A DNA stretch of 38,186 nt. It comes from Lysobacteraceae bacterium NML07-0707. GTDB taxonomy: Bacteria > Pseudomonadota > Gammaproteobacteria > Xanthomonadales > Xanthomonadaceae. Numbering within the stretch: the first letter of the stretch is position 1; the number at the start of each line of letters is the position of its first letter. The notes below the pieces were generated by a model that searched no databases, was not told where the DNA came from, and was given only the letters and a program-made list of their open reading frames with translations. This document shows, piece by piece, positions 6,710-34,825 of this stretch. Position numbers and translations under genes: made by a program. The DNA is taken from contig NWQT01000035.1 in assembly GCA_002798295.1 (NCBI GenBank), positions 1 to 38,186 on the forward strand, read 5' to 3'.

Positions 6710-7659
6710 TTAGGTGTTCAGTCTCATCATTAGATGGCTCGGCGCAATCCTAAAGCGTTCAGGCTGTGCGTCCCACTGTTTGCAGATGAATTCGTAGGGC
6801 GTCAGCCCTTTCAAGGTCTTGAGTCTGCGGGCGAAGTTGTAGGCGTCCATGAAGCTGGCCAGGTGCTGCTGCAGCTGAGCGTGATCGTCGTAGTGGAAAC
6901 GCTTGACCGTGGCCTCCTTGATGGTTCGGTTCATCCGTTCGACCTGTCCATTCGTCCAGGGATGCTTGAGCTGGGTCAGACGGTGCTCGATGCCATGCTC
7001 TTTACACACCCGGGTGAAGATGTGCTCCAGGCAATACCGGTCACGACGGCGGTTGGTGAATTGGATGCCGTTGTCGGTCAGCACCGTGTGGATGTGGTCG
7101 GGCGCGGTATCCATCAAATTGCGCAGAAACTGAGCCGCCGCCATCTTGTTGGCGCGGCGATGCAGCTCGGCGTAAGCGAACTTCGACGTTCTGTCGATGG
7201 CAACAAACAGGTAGAGCCTGCCTTCAGCGGTATACACCTCGGCAATATCGACATGGAAGTAGCCGATGGGATAACGCTTGAAGGTTTTTTGACGGGCTTA
7301 TCGCCTTCAGGTTCAGGCAGCCGAGAGATGCCATGGCGCTGCAAACAGCGATGCAGCGAGGAGCGCGTCAGATGCGGGATGGTTGCTTGCAAGGCATACA
7401 GACAGTCGTCCAGTGGCAGCAGGGTGTGCTTGCGGAAAGCAACGATGGCGGCCTCTTCCTCAATGGACAACACGGTAGAGCGTGGTTGCCTGGGGCCGGT
7501 AGGCAGGTCGGCCACCGAGGTGCGTTTCTTCCACTTGGCCACCGTTTTGATGTTGATGCCATAACGCTTGGCCAGCGTTCTCAGGCTCTCTTGACTATGT
7601 TGTATCGCTCGGCGGGTTGCCTCTGTCGTCGTGGCGCTTGCATGAAGAACTTGTCCCAT
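6710..7659 (-). pseudogene. IS481-family transposase, split by one frameshift
   Basis: Reconstructed as one protein of about 316 aa, the normal size. The N-terminal helix-turn-helix part (MGQVLHASATTTEATRRAIQ) runs from 7659. The homology then moves by -1 at a run of six A (minus strand; 7285-7290). The expected KPVKKTFKRYPIGYFHVDIAE is split between two frames there. The integrase core keeps all three acidic residues: D in HVDIAE, D in LTDNGIQF and E in GQVERMNR. The C-terminus RRLKTLKGLTPYEFICK is also complete. A missing A in the run or programmed slippage could both explain the split; only the indel is usual for this family. The TAA stop (6710-6712) lies in the flanking target sequence. 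ATG at 7674 is an alternative start. Confidence 0.85.
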
Positions 7660-7715
7660 AGTGCTTGCTTCCATTCGGGGGAGAAGATTGAACCATCAAA
7701 GTCTGGGATCAAATA
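6715..7715 (-). mobile_element. IS481-family insertion sequence, about 1.0 kb
   Basis: A DDE transposase gene fills the element. Candidate imperfect terminal repeats are 6715-6737 and 7693-7715; compared in inverted orientation, 14 of 23 positions agree by eye. They are flanked by CTTAGG (6709-6714) and CCTAGG (7716-7721), a near-duplicate containing the CTAG-like core that IS481 elements favour as target. Exact ends are inferred, not proven. It lies between the lipoprotein gene and the 3' end of the unknown gene at 7728 without interrupting either. Confidence 0.7.
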
Positions 7716-28675: not shown

Positions 28676-29071
28676 TCAGGGCGTGATGAGTTTCAAGCCC
28701 TTGAACCAGTCACGGTAAAACACGGCATCGTGGGTAATCAGCCCATCGCACTGCATCAGCGCATGGGCGCCAATCAAAAATTCCGGGACAGCCCGGTCGC
28801 CCTCGCCACCACGCTGGCGATAGCGACGCTGCATTTCTCCGGCGCGCAGTGCGGACTTGGCTTCCAGCGGCAGATAGCGGATGCCGATTTCTTCCAGCAC
28901 GGCAAGCGCTTCATCCCCATCTTGCAGGGCGCTACAGACCTCTGCCAGGGCAACCTCGCCAATCACCACCGCGCCTTGCGCCAGCGCCCGGCGCAGCACT
29001 GCTTCCGCAGCATCGGCATGCTCGCCATCGGTGAGCAGATCCAGCAGCACGCCCGAATCAATGGCAATCAC
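28676..29071 (-). CDS. vapC: VapC-type PIN-domain toxin
   Basis: 131-residue PIN-domain ribonuclease, the toxin half of a type II toxin-antitoxin pair. Acidic residues are D5 (MIAIDSGVLLDLL), E44 (ALAEVCSAL), E97 (PEFLIGAHALMQ) and D115 (LITHDAVFYRDWF). At E97 most VapC proteins have aspartate, so this is a conservative change in the catalytic set. Its ATG overlaps the antitoxin stop as ATGA (29068-29071), the normal arrangement for coupled translation. Its stop lies 43 bp before acnB. The RNA target cannot be told from sequence. Confidence 0.9.
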   Translation of the reverse strand: MIAIDSGVLLDLLTDGEHADAAEAVLRRALAQGAVVIGEVALAEVCSALQDGDEALAVLEEIGIRYLPLEAKSALRAGEMQRRYRQRGGEGDRAVPEFLIGAHALMQCDGLITHDAVFYRDWFKGLKLITP

Positions 29072-29301
29072 GCCGCCCCGCCCTTGCCACGCACGGCGCG
29101 GCTGGCTGCGGCACTATCGGCAAAGCCATCCAGCCGGAAGCGCCCGCGGGCGCGTGAGAGCACATCATCGACATGCTTGCGCAGCACGATGCGACCGCCA
29201 TCCATCTCCACCTTCAAGGTGCTGCCCTTGGTCAGCCCCAGGGCATCACGCACGGCTTTGGGCAAGGTGATTTGTCCACGTTCGGCTACGGTCACTTCCA
29301 T
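29068..29301 (-). CDS. vapB: VapB-type antitoxin, AbrB/SpoVT fold
   Basis: 77 residues. The N-terminal swapped-hairpin AbrB domain reads VTVAERGQITLPKAVRDALG then GSTLKVEMDGGRIVLRK. It is followed by a short flexible tail that should block the toxin. I chose the ATG at 29301. The upstream ATG at 29328 lies only 3 bases past the -10 hexamer, so it would sit before or at the transcript start. The protein should bind its own promoter; the repeats there fit this. Gene order (antitoxin first, 4-nt overlap) is standard for vapBC. Confidence 0.88.
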   Translation of the reverse strand: MEVTVAERGQITLPKAVRDALGLTKGSTLKVEMDGGRIVLRKHVDDVLSRARGRFRLDGFADSAAASRAVRGKGGAA

Positions 29302-29320
29302 GGCGGCGGCTCTGGATGAA

Positions 29321-29359
29321 GTATGCATGCATTATACATACTTGAAGATACATACCCAA
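29321..29359 (-). promoter_or_regulatory. vapBC promoter with repeat operator
   Basis: On the minus strand TTGGGT (29359-29354), a 17-bp spacer and a perfect TATAAT (29336-29331) form a sigma-70-type promoter. GTATGTAT occurs twice as a direct repeat 14 bp apart (29355-29348 and 29341-29334). The inverted half ATGCATAC (29328-29321) follows. The repeats overlap both promoter hexamers, as expected for an antitoxin operator. Confidence 0.65.
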
Positions 29360-31676: not shown

Positions 31677-32306
31677 TCAAGCGTCTATCGGCATAGCTGA
31701 GAATCGGGCATTGGCCGAGCGTAGCCCCCAAACCAGTTGCACAAAGGCAATATTGTTGATGAGTGGTTCATCACCAATAATCAGCCAGTAGCCGGCGCCA
31801 TCCACCCAGAACATGATCAGGCTTGTAGTGGGCAGCAGCATGTCGATGTCGTTGTGAAACGATACTGCACGGGCGCTGCCACTCCAGCCGCGTTGACGCT
31901 GACGCTGCACAAAATCGGCAAATTCTGCCGCGGCCGCGCAAAGCGCTTCGGCCTCCGTTTGCGAGTACCCAACCCGCGCAAGACAAAAACCGTCATTGGA
32001 TGCCAGCGCTGCCGTGCGGCTGCCAGAGAGGCCGGCAATGGCATGCGGCAGATAATTGTCGAGATTGGCGTCAGGCGCATGCAGTGGCTGCGAAACTTCC
32101 TGCACCCACCCCTCTGCCAACGCCACGGTCAAGAATGTCAAATCGGCGCCACTACGCTCAAGCCATATGCTGCGCAATGGCGCTTGTGATGTGGCCATCA
32201 GGCTTTGCAAGACCTTGCTGACTTCATCAGGCTCAGCCTGGGCATAAGCGCGCAGCGTGCCTATCGGGGTCAGCATCAAATAAGGCTCGGCCGTCTTATC
32301 AGGCAT
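31677..32306 (-). CDS. Unknown protein, last gene of the roadblock/PAS operon
   Basis: 209 residues, soluble, start chosen at 32306 because GAGGAG lies 5 nt upstream. The first half looks mixed alpha/beta. The second half (about residues 110-209) shows a strand-helix-strand-strand-helix order. It runs ALASNDGFCLARVGYSQTEA, then a helix, then SLIMFWVDGAGYWLIIGDEP and a final helix NIAFVQLVWGLR. This order resembles a roadblock/LC7 fold, but sequence similarity is too weak to claim it. It is the fifth gene of the operon, 42 bp after the fourth. I cannot assign a function. Confidence 0.7.
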   Translation of the reverse strand: MPDKTAEPYLMLTPIGTLRAYAQAEPDEVSKVLQSLMATSQAPLRSIWLERSGADLTFLTVALAEGWVQEVSQPLHAPDANLDNYLPHAIAGLSGSRTAALASNDGFCLARVGYSQTEAEALCAAAAEFADFVQRQRQRGWSGSARAVSFHNDIDMLLPTTSLIMFWVDGAGYWLIIGDEPLINNIAFVQLVWGLRSANARFSAMPIDA

Positions 32307-32348
32307 GGCACTCCTCGCTTGCAATCGGTTTCCAAAATCCACAGGACT

Positions 32349-32957
32349 TCAAGTATTTGAGCTTCTGACGCTTTCCAGCGTAGCGGCAACCTCATCCCAG
32401 CGTGTATCCAGGGGCTTTTTGTGTTTGAAAAGCTCACGTCTTACCAGCATGAAGGCCAAGGTATCAAATGTGGCCTGACAGTGCGCCAGAAACTCGTTTT
32501 CTGCCTGCGTATCGCCTGCGAGTATGGCGCACAGCGCCGCTGCGGCCAATGTGCGCGAGTCATCCGTCCCGCACAACAGCGCACGGCGCGGCACATCCAG
32601 CGATGGTGTGGCCAGGATGCACCAGCGCGTTGCCCAGCGGGTAGCGCGCGGCAGGCATTCTCCTGACTGCGCCACGAGGCAAAGTGCTGCATGCGCATGG
32701 GCGGGCAATCGCTGGGCGATATCAGGCGATGCCAACAATTTTGCAAACAACTCAGGCTCGGGCGGGCAGGCATGCAGCATGTCCACCACTGCCGCTTGCA
32801 ATGCCTCACTCCCCGGCATCTGCATGGCCGCGTCAATACGCGCCTGATGATGCGCATGAATCTCAGGCGCGGCCAATACCCTGCGACCAGCGCGCTGGAA
32901 GGCGATACGCACAGCCTGCCCCTCAAGGTTTTCCGGGGCAGGCGGTATAAGCGTCAT
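32349..32957 (-). CDS. Unknown helical protein, fourth gene of the roadblock/PAS operon
   Basis: 202 residues, apparently all helical, no signal peptide or membrane segment. It is rich in alanine, with scattered cysteine and histidine (for example APEIHAHHQARIDAAM, ALLCGTDDSRTLAAAALCAI). The C-terminus is charged (RRELFKHKKPLDTRWDEVAA). GAGG lies about 8 nt before the ATG. No family is recognised. It lies 39 bp after the PhnD-like gene and 42 bp before the last gene. An adaptor or chaperone for the sensory proteins is conceivable but unsupported. Confidence 0.7.
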   Translation of the reverse strand: MTLIPPAPENLEGQAVRIAFQRAGRRVLAAPEIHAHHQARIDAAMQMPGSEALQAAVVDMLHACPPEPELFAKLLASPDIAQRLPAHAHAALCLVAQSGECLPRATRWATRWCILATPSLDVPRRALLCGTDDSRTLAAAALCAILAGDTQAENEFLAHCQATFDTLAFMLVRRELFKHKKPLDTRWDEVAATLESVRSSNT

Positions 32958-32996
32958 AGCTGTGGCCTCGGGCTGGATTGAGCAGTGAGCCGCCGG

Positions 32997-33749
32997 TCAG
33001 TCCAGAAGCGTATCCATGAGGTCGATCATGAATTCGGCATCTTCCCTGTCCATGGCCTCAAATCCGCCCTTGATACCCAGATCATCCAGCACCGGCTGCC
33101 CATCGGCAGAGCCTGAAAGCGACAGCAAGGCCTGCAAAATCTTCTCGCCAGCCTCCTCGTCAACTTGCTTGCCAAGCAAAATCACATGGGTGATATCGGT
33201 CAGCCTGCTTTCAATCAGCGGTTTGAGCTGGGATTGGCTCAGGCGCGACAGCGAGTGATAAGCCTCTGCCAAGAAGAAAGAAGCATCCACTTCCCCCTTG
33301 ATGGCCAGGCGCGCCGAGGCCTGATAGGTGTCCACCTGCACCCAGTTGATATCGGCTTCGGTCAAATCCGCCGCTTCCAGCAGGCGCAGGCCAATCAGCT
33401 TGACATCCTTGTTGTCGGTAAGCGCGATACGGCAGCCGGGCTTGAGATCCTGGATTTTGTTGCAGGGCGAGTGGGCAGAAGTGGCAATCACCATTTCATC
33501 GGGCTTGCCTACCGGGCGGGCAATAGCCCGATAGCCCTGTTCACGCAACATGGTTGCCGCATCAAAGGGATTGGCATAAACCGCCCCCACCTTGCCCGAA
33601 GCGATCCATTCAGCTTGCTCTGCCGCCGAAGCCGGCGTCAGCAAATGAATCTGCATGCCGGTCTTTTTTTGCAGCAGCGTATTGAGCATATGCCAGCCGG
33701 CGAAACGCTCAGGGGCAAAATCCGGCGCAATCAGCATATTGAGCATCAT
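32997..33749 (-). CDS. PhnD-like substrate-binding-fold protein without signal peptide
   Basis: 250 residues of the phosphate/phosphonate-binding (PhnD, type 2 periplasmic binding) fold. Recognisable stretches are MLIAPDFAPERFAGW at the start, then SGKVGAVYANPFDAATMLRE. LKPGCRIALTDNKDVKLIG and GEVDASFFLAEAYHSLS follow. True PhnD proteins carry a signal peptide and sit in the periplasm; this one starts MMLNMLIAPDF directly at the first beta strand, so it should stay in the cytoplasm. GGAGG lies 6 nt upstream. Its ATG overlaps the PAS gene stop (33746-33749, ATGATG). With no transporter genes nearby it is more likely a ligand sensor than an uptake protein. Confidence 0.82.
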   Translation of the reverse strand: MMLNMLIAPDFAPERFAGWHMLNTLLQKKTGMQIHLLTPASAAEQAEWIASGKVGAVYANPFDAATMLREQGYRAIARPVGKPDEMVIATSAHSPCNKIQDLKPGCRIALTDNKDVKLIGLRLLEAADLTEADINWVQVDTYQASARLAIKGEVDASFFLAEAYHSLSRLSQSQLKPLIESRLTDITHVILLGKQVDEEAGEKILQALLSLSGSADGQPVLDDLGIKGGFEAMDREDAEFMIDLMDTLLD

Positions 33750-34243
33750 GCCGCACCTCCTTGTTCTGCCTGGCGCATCTGCTTGTAAAGTGCAGTCATT
33801 TCTTCAATCTTGCGCCGTGAAGGCGCGCGGCGAACCGAAGCAAAACCAACAACTTTGCCATCGCGGATATTGGGTACGGCCGTGGCATACACCCAGTAAT
33901 AGCTGCCATCCTTGCAAAGATTTTTGACATAGCCATGCCATTTTTTGCCTGCATTCAAGGTGTCCCACAAATCCTTGAAGGCCGCGCGCGGCATGTCCGG
34001 ATGGCGCAAGATGCTATGCGGCTGACCGATCAGCTCGCTGCGCGCGTAGCCGGAAATTTCCACAAAAGCATCATTGGCATGGGTCAGGATGCCATTGAGG
34101 TCGGTTCTTGAAACAATCAAGCGTCCTTCCGGGAAAGGCAGCTCGTTATCAGTGACATAAATGGTACGGGAGCTGCCATCGGCATAGGTCCACGTATGCG
34201 CTTGTGCCGGTACTGCCGGCTGGGTCATGTCGGAAAGTGCCAT
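33746..34243 (-). CDS. PAS-domain protein, Aer-like
   Basis: 165 residues from the ATG at 34243. The alternative ATG at 34264 overlaps the roadblock stop as ATGA and adds seven residues; which is used is unclear. A single PAS domain (about residues 40-145) reads LIVSRTDLNGILTHANDAFV, then ISGYARSELIGQPHSILRHP, KDGSYYWVYATAVP and GKVVGFASVRRAP. This is very like the FAD-binding PAS domain of aerotaxis receptors. There is no membrane segment, HAMP or chemoreceptor signalling domain; only a short helix (RRKIEEMTALYKQMRQAE) follows. The output must go through a partner, most simply a neighbour in the operon. Confidence 0.88.
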   Translation of the reverse strand: MALSDMTQPAVPAQAHTWTYADGSSRTIYVTDNELPFPEGRLIVSRTDLNGILTHANDAFVEISGYARSELIGQPHSILRHPDMPRAAFKDLWDTLNAGKKWHGYVKNLCKDGSYYWVYATAVPNIRDGKVVGFASVRRAPSRRKIEEMTALYKQMRQAEQGGAA

Positions 34244-34260
34244 GATGAAAACACTCCCAA

Positions 34261-34623
34261 TCAAATCAATTTGGCAAGCGCTTCGGCTGCACGCTTGATA
34301 TCCAGGAACAACAGGCCGAGCTTGGCATTTTGGCGAGCCAGCACGATCAGCACGGCTTCATTGCCTGCCGCACTCATGATGACGTAGCCCTTGTCGCCCT
34401 GGATCAAGACCCGCTCCAGAGAGCCGCGCGCCAGTTCCTGGGCAGCGCGCTCGCCCAGCGACAAAAGCGCAGCCGACATCGCACCAACCCGATCTTCGTC
34501 CATATCATGCGGCAGTGACGAGGCAATCATCAGGCCATCGGTCGATGTCAATGCAGAAGCCTCGATATCCGCAGAAGATCCGGTCAGGTCTTCCAGCAAC
34601 CGTTGAAACATATCAGTACGCAT
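34261..34623 (-). CDS. Roadblock/LC7-domain protein (MglB-like)
   Basis: 120 residues that are almost entirely a roadblock/LC7 domain. The pattern SADIEASALTSTDGLMIASS, then AALLSLGERAAQELARGSLE and VLIQGDKGYVIMSAAGNEAV with AKLGLLFLDIKRAAEAL is typical. In MglB, proteins of this fold regulate small Ras-like GTPases; others serve as scaffolds. No Ras-like GTPase gene is in the window. GGGGAG 6 nt upstream fixes the ATG at 34623. It is the first gene of the five-gene operon, and its stop overlaps the possible start of the PAS gene. Confidence 0.87.
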   Translation of the reverse strand: MRTDMFQRLLEDLTGSSADIEASALTSTDGLMIASSLPHDMDEDRVGAMSAALLSLGERAAQELARGSLERVLIQGDKGYVIMSAAGNEAVLIVLARQNAKLGLLFLDIKRAAEALAKLI

Positions 34624-34800: not shown

Positions 34801-34825
34801 AAAAGCTGGATAAATTCCAGCTTTT
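34801..34825 (-). terminator. Rho-independent terminator after lysS
   Basis: Perfect 10-bp stem AAAAGCTGGA / TCCAGCTTTT with a 5-nt loop, followed on the minus strand by a T run (CTTTTTGCC). A second hairpin, GTTGCGCC / GGCGCAAC (34856-34878), lies between it and the lysS stop. The remaining 177 bp to the roadblock gene should hold that operon's promoter; I see no convincing consensus there. Confidence 0.8.

Follow-up and report, generated by a model that had tools for sequence, protein, structure and literature searches.

A roadblock, PAS, and PhnD-fold operon of Lysobacteraceae bacterium NML07-0707, a probable GTPase-less derivative of the Group 3 MglA/MglB system

RESULTS AND DISCUSSION

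A compact operon encodes roadblock, PAS, and PhnD-fold proteins

We analyzed a 38,186-nucleotide (nt) stretch of DNA (hereafter, the window) from Lysobacteraceae bacterium NML07-0707 (GCA_002798295.1, contig NWQT01000035.1; genome label G000), in which five open, compactly arranged minus-strand frames span positions 31677 to 34623. In gene order, they encode a roadblock protein (RB), an Aer-type PAS protein, a PhnD-fold protein, an all-helical protein (U4), and a predicted second roadblock protein (RB2) (Table 1). As argued below, this operon is probably a derivative of a Group 3 MglA/MglB system that lacks the Ras-like GTPase MglA. The PAS and PhnD frames share a 4-nt ATGA overlap, and the other gaps measure 17 nt (RB-PAS), 39 nt (PhnD-U4), and 42 nt (U4-RB2). 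A preliminary description of this DNA had reported such a compact unit, free of signal peptides and membrane spans, and on both counts our analysis agrees: none of the five N-termini has a signal-peptide-like start, as judged by eye and from hydropathy, and no hydrophobic span was found in Kyte-Doolittle profiles of the five proteins, in which the 19-residue mean never exceeded 1.44. Likewise, Pfam and NCBIfam scans detected no kinase family above cut-off among the five.

Table 1. Positions and supporting evidence for the operon genes and adjoining features of the window
Feature	Coordinates	Strand	Evidence or remark
RB, roadblock/LC7 (MglB-like) protein, 120 amino acids (aa)	34261-34623	-	Pfam Robl_LC7, 4.4e-18
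Aer-type PAS protein, 165 aa	33746-34243 (ATG at 34243)	-	PAS_3, 1.6e-18
PhnD-fold (Phosphonate-bd) protein, 250 aa	32997-33749	-	PF12974, 7.8e-39
U4, all-helical protein, 202 aa	32349-32957	-	AlphaFold2, pLDDT 91.4; no Pfam family
RB2, predicted second roadblock protein, 209 aa	31677-32306 (ATG at 32306 taken)	-	AlphaFold2 and Foldseek
U4-RB2 gap, 42 nt	32307-32348	-	Site of receiver-like and Ras-like GTPase (MglA) genes in relatives; neither present in the window
Terminator-like hairpin, 3' of lysS-like gene	34801-34825	-	Stem (listed on the plus strand), then TTTTTG on the minus strand

The gene set is conserved, and relatives carry a Group 3 MglA

Scanning named genomes with the PhnD-like protein yielded 304 relatives, the best 80 of which were retained as named loci. 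All five genes occurred in the same order on one strand in 74 of these 80, the other six ending at contig edges, and the hosts include Comamonadaceae (Ottowia, Vandammella, Polaromonas, and Rhodoferax), Moraxella, Psychrobacter, Pseudoxanthomonas, and Stenotrophomonas. We therefore reject a module private to the window genome; a failure of the genes to occur together elsewhere, which the preliminary description had named as evidence against a common unit, was not what this neighborhood check found. A genome of the same taxonomic order as the window has a duplicated form of the system (L108:2003-9459), in which tandem RB-PhnD and RB-PAS-PhnD sets are convergent with receiver-like, RB2, MglA, receiver-like, and short U4 genes.

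A Ras-like GTPase gene (MglA) follows U4 in 26 of the 80 named relatives and is always accompanied by a receiver-like gene, which lies between U4 and RB2 in 25 of these 26 GTPase loci (in L027, MglA is present and the contig ends before RB2). These operonic GTPases bear out the earlier expectation of a conserved Aer-like PAS, PhnD-fold, and roadblock set with a likely GTPase link. The receiver-like gene is present in 42 of the 80, including L038, whose contig ends before the MglA position; the Moraxella receiver-like protein matched no Pfam family. Among 12 aligned MglAs, the G3 motif is GTPGQ in all 12, the G5 motif is DAR in 11 (DPR in one), and G4 is without its usual lysine in 11. These features are as given for Group 3 MglA in the relevant passages of Wuichet and Søgaard-Andersen (2014; PMC4316618), in whose account a Group 3 operon combines MglA and one or two MglBs with a protein of unknown family for which receiver and winged-helix folds are predicted, such operons being almost confined to beta- and gammaproteobacteria. 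The window operon itself contains neither an MglA with GTPGQ and DAR motifs nor a gene for a receiver-like and winged-helix protein. It does encode an MglB with the Asp-Gly pair, and the coupling of that MglB to MglA is found in relatives only.

A further survey covered 229 genomes sampled evenly across the class, of which 27 had RB at E < 1e-30 (32 at E ≤ 1e-10) and 12 had the operon-type PhnD protein (E ≤ 1e-20). Neighborhoods were read in 26 RB genomes, i.e., all but the window's own, several being cut by short contigs; they contained MglA in 21, U4 in 15, and PAS and PhnD genes adjoining RB in nine. The usual order was U4-receiver-MglA-RB2-RB, with PAS-PhnD following RB where present. U4 is thus a recurrent operon part, often the first gene of the MglA operon in relatives, and the PAS and PhnD genes look like an added sensor pair. 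Taken together, the MglA motifs and the survey gene order indicate that the window operon represents the sensing half of a Group 3 Mgl system from which the GTPase is absent. In genomes G090 and G236, PhnD-fold relatives (L182 to L184, among them L182:7310-8143 and L183) lie on contigs other than that of the strong RB match, with a weak RB-like match (1.7e-4) by L184; the L182 relative has no signal-peptide-like start, and its neighbors are an SCP2-like frame and genes resembling those of type II secretion (read by eye).

The preliminary description had presented the unit as a candidate undescribed sensing module. That it has no kinship with known systems is not supported, as its core resembles the Group 3 system defined in 2014. 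What appears to be new is the PAS/PhnD-bearing, GTPase-less form and U4 as a component; the Group 3 Mgl core is known. The words "PAS" and "phosphonate" occur zero times in the main text of PMC4316618, and U4 was not found in its passages on Group 3. Among the open-access papers listed, judged from titles and abstract openings, none describes a PAS/PhnD module or repeated GTPase loss, and roadblock together with PhnD matched no paper.

Predicted properties of the encoded proteins

RB scored 65.2 bits against Robl_LC7, well past the cut-off of 23, and its Asp29-Gly30 pair is invariant in 15 aligned sequences; such a pair is reported for MglBs of Groups 2 to 5 in the passages concerned of PMC4316618. 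RB2 remained below the same cut-off (E 0.0067, 16.6 bits). Its AlphaFold2 model, built from a 28-sequence alignment (predicted local distance difference test [pLDDT], 91.3; predicted template modeling score [pTM], 0.86), has a small N-terminal domain (about residues 9 to 71), mostly helical with flanking strands, followed by the roadblock element order (about residues 82 to 203). The best Foldseek match of this model in the PDB was the Streptomyces avermitilis roadblock 3kye (5.1e-4; template modeling [TM] score, 0.58 by target length and 0.37 by query length), and Myxococcus xanthus MglB (6hjm) was matched at 7.3e-4. By predicted fold, RB2 is therefore a second roadblock protein. The two proteins left unrecognized in the preliminary description have thus parted ways: U4 still has no family in Pfam at E ≤ 1 or in NCBIfam, and no convincing PDB fold match in Foldseek (best E, 0.24), whereas RB2 now has a predicted identity.

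The PAS protein, for which family scans were run on positions 33746 to 34240, matched the PAS domain of Escherichia coli Aer at 9.9e-40. More specifically, it keeps five residues (H53, R57, W70, N85, and R115) whose contacts with flavin adenine dinucleotide (FAD) are seen in a crystallized variant of the Aer PAS domain, as described in the pertinent part of PMC9668731. Over 92 aligned rows, R57, W70, and N85 occur in all 92 and R115 in 91; position 53 is H in 76 and Q in 16. At the site of a sixth contact, M69, 91 of the 92 rows have Leu. Because these contact residues are kept, the PAS protein is likely to bind flavin. Within its 165 aa, no membrane anchor, HAMP domain, or chemoreceptor signaling domain was detected, only PAS families exceeding the Pfam cut-offs and no hydrophobic span being present.

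The PhnD-fold protein ends in a conserved acidic C-terminal helix (EDAEFMIDLMDTLLD in the window; 27-sequence alignment), which is a candidate docking tail. In the PDB, its profile reached two sequences at E ≤ 0.001, PtxB and ArrX, both at 7.5e-4. A role in phosphonate transport was considered and rejected, given this weak PDB reach, the absence of a signal-peptide-like start, and the absence of any recognized permease or ATPase gene beside it.

The GTPase gene has apparently been lost repeatedly

A tree was built from 92 rows carrying RB, PAS, and PhnD, in which three genomes appear twice (L010/L219, L011/L103, and L084/L105) and L038 was scored as GTPase-less. GTPase presence changes five times on this tree, at least four of these changes being forced by well-supported branches (shuffled mean, 26.6). 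We read the changes as losses, since all but one of the deep-branching rows have the GTPase and a remnant of it persists in the GTPase-less L029. A single loss was rejected by an approximately unbiased (AU) test of one GTPase-less clade (66 rows, p = 3e-37). The same GTPase-less set is present in all 31 Psychrobacter rows of one clade, and a Polaromonas/Rhodoferax group retains the receiver-like gene without MglA. Along with GTPase loss, only scattered, mostly conservative residue changes were seen. The record behind L029 is titled Streptomyces cinereus and holds a Moraxella-like operon together with a 72-base GTPase remnant in the genome; it is probably mislabelled or contaminated.

A whole-genome MglA profile search (E ≤ 1e-3) recovered all eight GTPase-bearing controls, six of which were rows of the search profile. 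Of the 27 searched genomes whose operon is GTPase-less, nine gave an MglA match, one of these being a 72-base remnant, and 18 gave none. An in-frame stop that this search indicated in the MglA match of Moraxella atlantae was absent on translation of the matching part of L030, and we draw no conclusion from it. As G017 and G065 share PilM coordinates and were taken as one genome, the count becomes 17 of 26 distinct genomes without a match; seven of these 17 are metagenome assemblies, and G022, also without a match, consists of one contig with completeness rated at 100%. The preliminary suggestion that the complex acts on a GTPase encoded elsewhere is thus not general.

In an AU test on the same 66 rows, a single clade of the eight rows from the family Xanthomonadaceae was rejected (p = 4.5e-5), making horizontal transfer into the window lineage likely; operon-type RB occurs in three of 17 genomes of the window's genus. 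Ratios of nonsynonymous to synonymous substitution rates (dN/dS), calculated against G012 and G001 of the same genus, were 0.000 and 0.009 for RB, 0.12 and 0.04 for PAS, 0.06 and 0.02 for PhnD, 0.24 and 0.30 for U4, and 0.12 and 0.08 for RB2 (the last at a dS of 1.8, near saturation). The five genes are therefore kept by purifying selection without a GTPase in the operon.

Type IV pili and a second Mgl system as possible targets

PilM, a marker of type IV pili, was found in all 27 genomes with a strong RB match versus 144 of 202 others (p = 2e-4, Fisher test, phylogeny ignored), in 31 of 32 once five genomes with weaker RB matches (E 1e-22 to 1e-14) are counted in, and in 33 of the 35 operon genomes tested. 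In the window genome, PilM is present and flagellin gave no match. We infer that type IV pili are the likeliest target.

The window genome contains one other MglA, on contig C52 (G3 motif GLPGQ), next to which lie an MglB and a receiver-like frame. In this minus-strand cluster (G000:C52; L102:8486-10151), the MglA and MglB genes adjoin a frame that by eye is receiver-like and winged-helix-like. Two further frames near these genes, both read by eye, are a ferredoxin-reductase/globin-like fusion (L102:6823-8439) and an ABC ATPase-like frame (L102:10628-11965) whose C-terminal part is phosphatase-like. In Psychrobacter sp. WY6, a minus-strand MglA-MglB pair (L222:6267-7931) adjoins a frame whose N-terminus resembles a BLUF flavin photoreceptor domain (by eye), which suggests that bacterial Mgl systems may have other flavin inputs.

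A model for signaling without the GTPase

The accepted role of MglB-type roadblock proteins is to regulate MglA. We propose that, in the present system, the Aer-type PAS protein would bind FAD and report redox or respiratory state, that the cytoplasmic PhnD-fold protein would bind a small metabolite, and that the two together would set the state of a two-roadblock complex of RB and RB2 with U4. In the ancestral system, this complex may have set the nucleotide state of MglA and, through it, surface motility (type IV pili) or transcription via the receiver-like protein; in the window lineage, its target would be either a client other than a GTPase, reached directly and most likely the machinery of the type IV pilus, or the unlinked MglA of the same genome. 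A redox and ligand signal on a roadblock scaffold is plausible, and on balance we favor, with moderate confidence, the view that the operon derives from a Group 3 MglA/MglB system, lacks its GTPase, and works in this manner. If this is true, roadblock proteins may carry a signal without a GTPase. The apparent loss of the GTPase at least four times, with roadblocks and partners kept, lets one ask what roadblocks do alone, and the operon offers candidate inputs (a flavin PAS for redox and a cytoplasmic PhnD fold for a metabolite) to Group 3 Mgl systems, for which the Group 3 passages of the 2014 survey name no sensor (PMC4316618).

As to what the complex acts on, our working hypothesis, which we advance tentatively and at somewhat less than even confidence, is that the roadblocks work without any Ras-like GTPase: a soluble complex that senses redox (FAD-PAS) and a metabolite (PhnD fold), made of what was the regulatory part of an MglA switch, would act directly on a client, for example the machinery of type IV pili, the GTPase having been discarded repeatedly and the complex kept. 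Several points weigh against the model as a whole. The tree by itself has no power to separate GTPase gain from loss, and the AU tests were done after the tree had been inspected. The roadblock identity of RB2 depends on a predicted structure, and HHalign comparison of RB2 with RB profiles was weak (probability, 0.7%). As the PhnD profile finds only PtxB and ArrX, the ligand of the PhnD-fold protein cannot be guessed. The pilus association is not specific, because flagellin is enriched too (21 of 27 versus 103 of 202, p = 0.007, Fisher test, phylogeny ignored); in the window's genus, PilM is present in 17 of 17 genomes and operon-type RB in only three; the two operon genomes without a PilM match are both metagenome assemblies; and the output partner is one that we infer.

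Should the sensor-roadblock complex instead regulate the unlinked C52 MglA, the system would still be GTPase-based and merely split in two. This is a less likely but serious alternative, as another MglA with an adjacent MglB is present in the window genome and likewise in the operon-bearing genus members G001 and G012, and in Snodgrassella an mglB unlinked to mglA has been tied to a motility-related phenotype: in the portion of PMC11112851 describing it, soft-agar colonies with a G78R allele of mglB-3 had flares at their edges, put down by the authors to motility dependent on type IV pili. Against this alternative, genus members without operon-type RB (G008, G009, G010, and G013) also carry other MglA and/or MglB genes, the MglA on C52 differs in its G3 motif and is paired with an MglB next to it, and most of the distinct genomes tested with a GTPase-less operon (17 of 26) gave no MglA match in the profile search. 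We regard as improbable a transcriptional sensor in which, without MglA, the output would reach gene expression through either the RB2 N-terminal domain or a receiver-like protein encoded elsewhere. Retention of the receiver-like gene without MglA in the Polaromonas/Rhodoferax group, the receiver and winged-helix folds predicted for the Group 3 protein of unknown family (in the Group 3 passages of PMC4316618), and the small, mostly helical, strand-flanked N-terminal domain modeled for RB2 are consistent with it, but the window operon has no receiver-like gene and no DNA-binding protein is among the 50 RB2 Foldseek matches listed. Very improbable, in our estimation, is a decaying relic of horizontal transfer, functionless in the window lineage: operon-type RB is sparse in the genus (3 of 17), a single clade of the eight family rows is disfavored and transfer likely, and U4 evolves fastest, but all five frames are open, dN/dS for RB, PAS, and PhnD lies between 0 and 0.12, and the GTPase-less set is kept throughout the 31 Psychrobacter rows.

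Relation to known systems

The polarity module of Myxococcus (MglA/MglB/MglC) resembles the operon in having more than one roadblock protein, and RB2 matches M. xanthus MglB by fold; its MglA belongs to Group 1, and polarity is a feature of the Myxococcus module. We know of no PAS or PhnD partner in that system. Nearest to the window operon is the Group 3 MglA/MglB system, as defined in its passages of the 2014 survey, since relatives of the operon have an MglA with GTPGQ and DAR motifs, two roadblocks, and a receiver-like protein; the window operon differs in having neither MglA nor the receiver-like gene. In actinobacterial conservons (CvnA-D), a sensor, a roadblock, and a Ras-like GTPase are likewise encoded together, according to the passages on them in PMC4316618, and RB2 finds its best fold match in a roadblock domain from Streptomyces avermitilis. 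In contrast to the conservons, the window operon has no histidine kinase (CvnA) and no GTPase, with soluble PAS and PhnD-fold proteins in the place of the sensor. Snodgrassella mglB-3, as portrayed in part of PMC11112851, is similar by description, as a roadblock gene unlinked to mglA.

Of the two sensor-like proteins, the PAS protein closely resembles E. coli Aer in PAS sequence and FAD contacts but, unlike Aer, has no hydrophobic span, HAMP domain, or chemoreceptor signaling domain. The other shares the Phosphonate-bd domain of ABC phosphonate-binding PhnD, from which it differs in its N-terminus, without a signal-peptide-like start, and in the lack of adjacent permease and ATPase genes (neighbors read by eye).

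Flanking genes and other features of the window

By eye, the neighbors of the operon are lysS, prfB, fadD, and a small membrane-protein frame. The terminator-like hairpin that follows the lysS-like gene (Table 1) suggests that the operon is transcribed separately; the hairpin scan found six terminator-like sites in the region versus 3.6 in shuffles. Between an aconitase-like gene and fadD (positions 28676 to 29328), tandem small AbrB-like and PIN-like genes resemble a VapBC-type toxin-antitoxin pair (by eye). Farther away, at positions 6710 to 7674, two overlapping frames are IS3-type transposase-like, also by eye.

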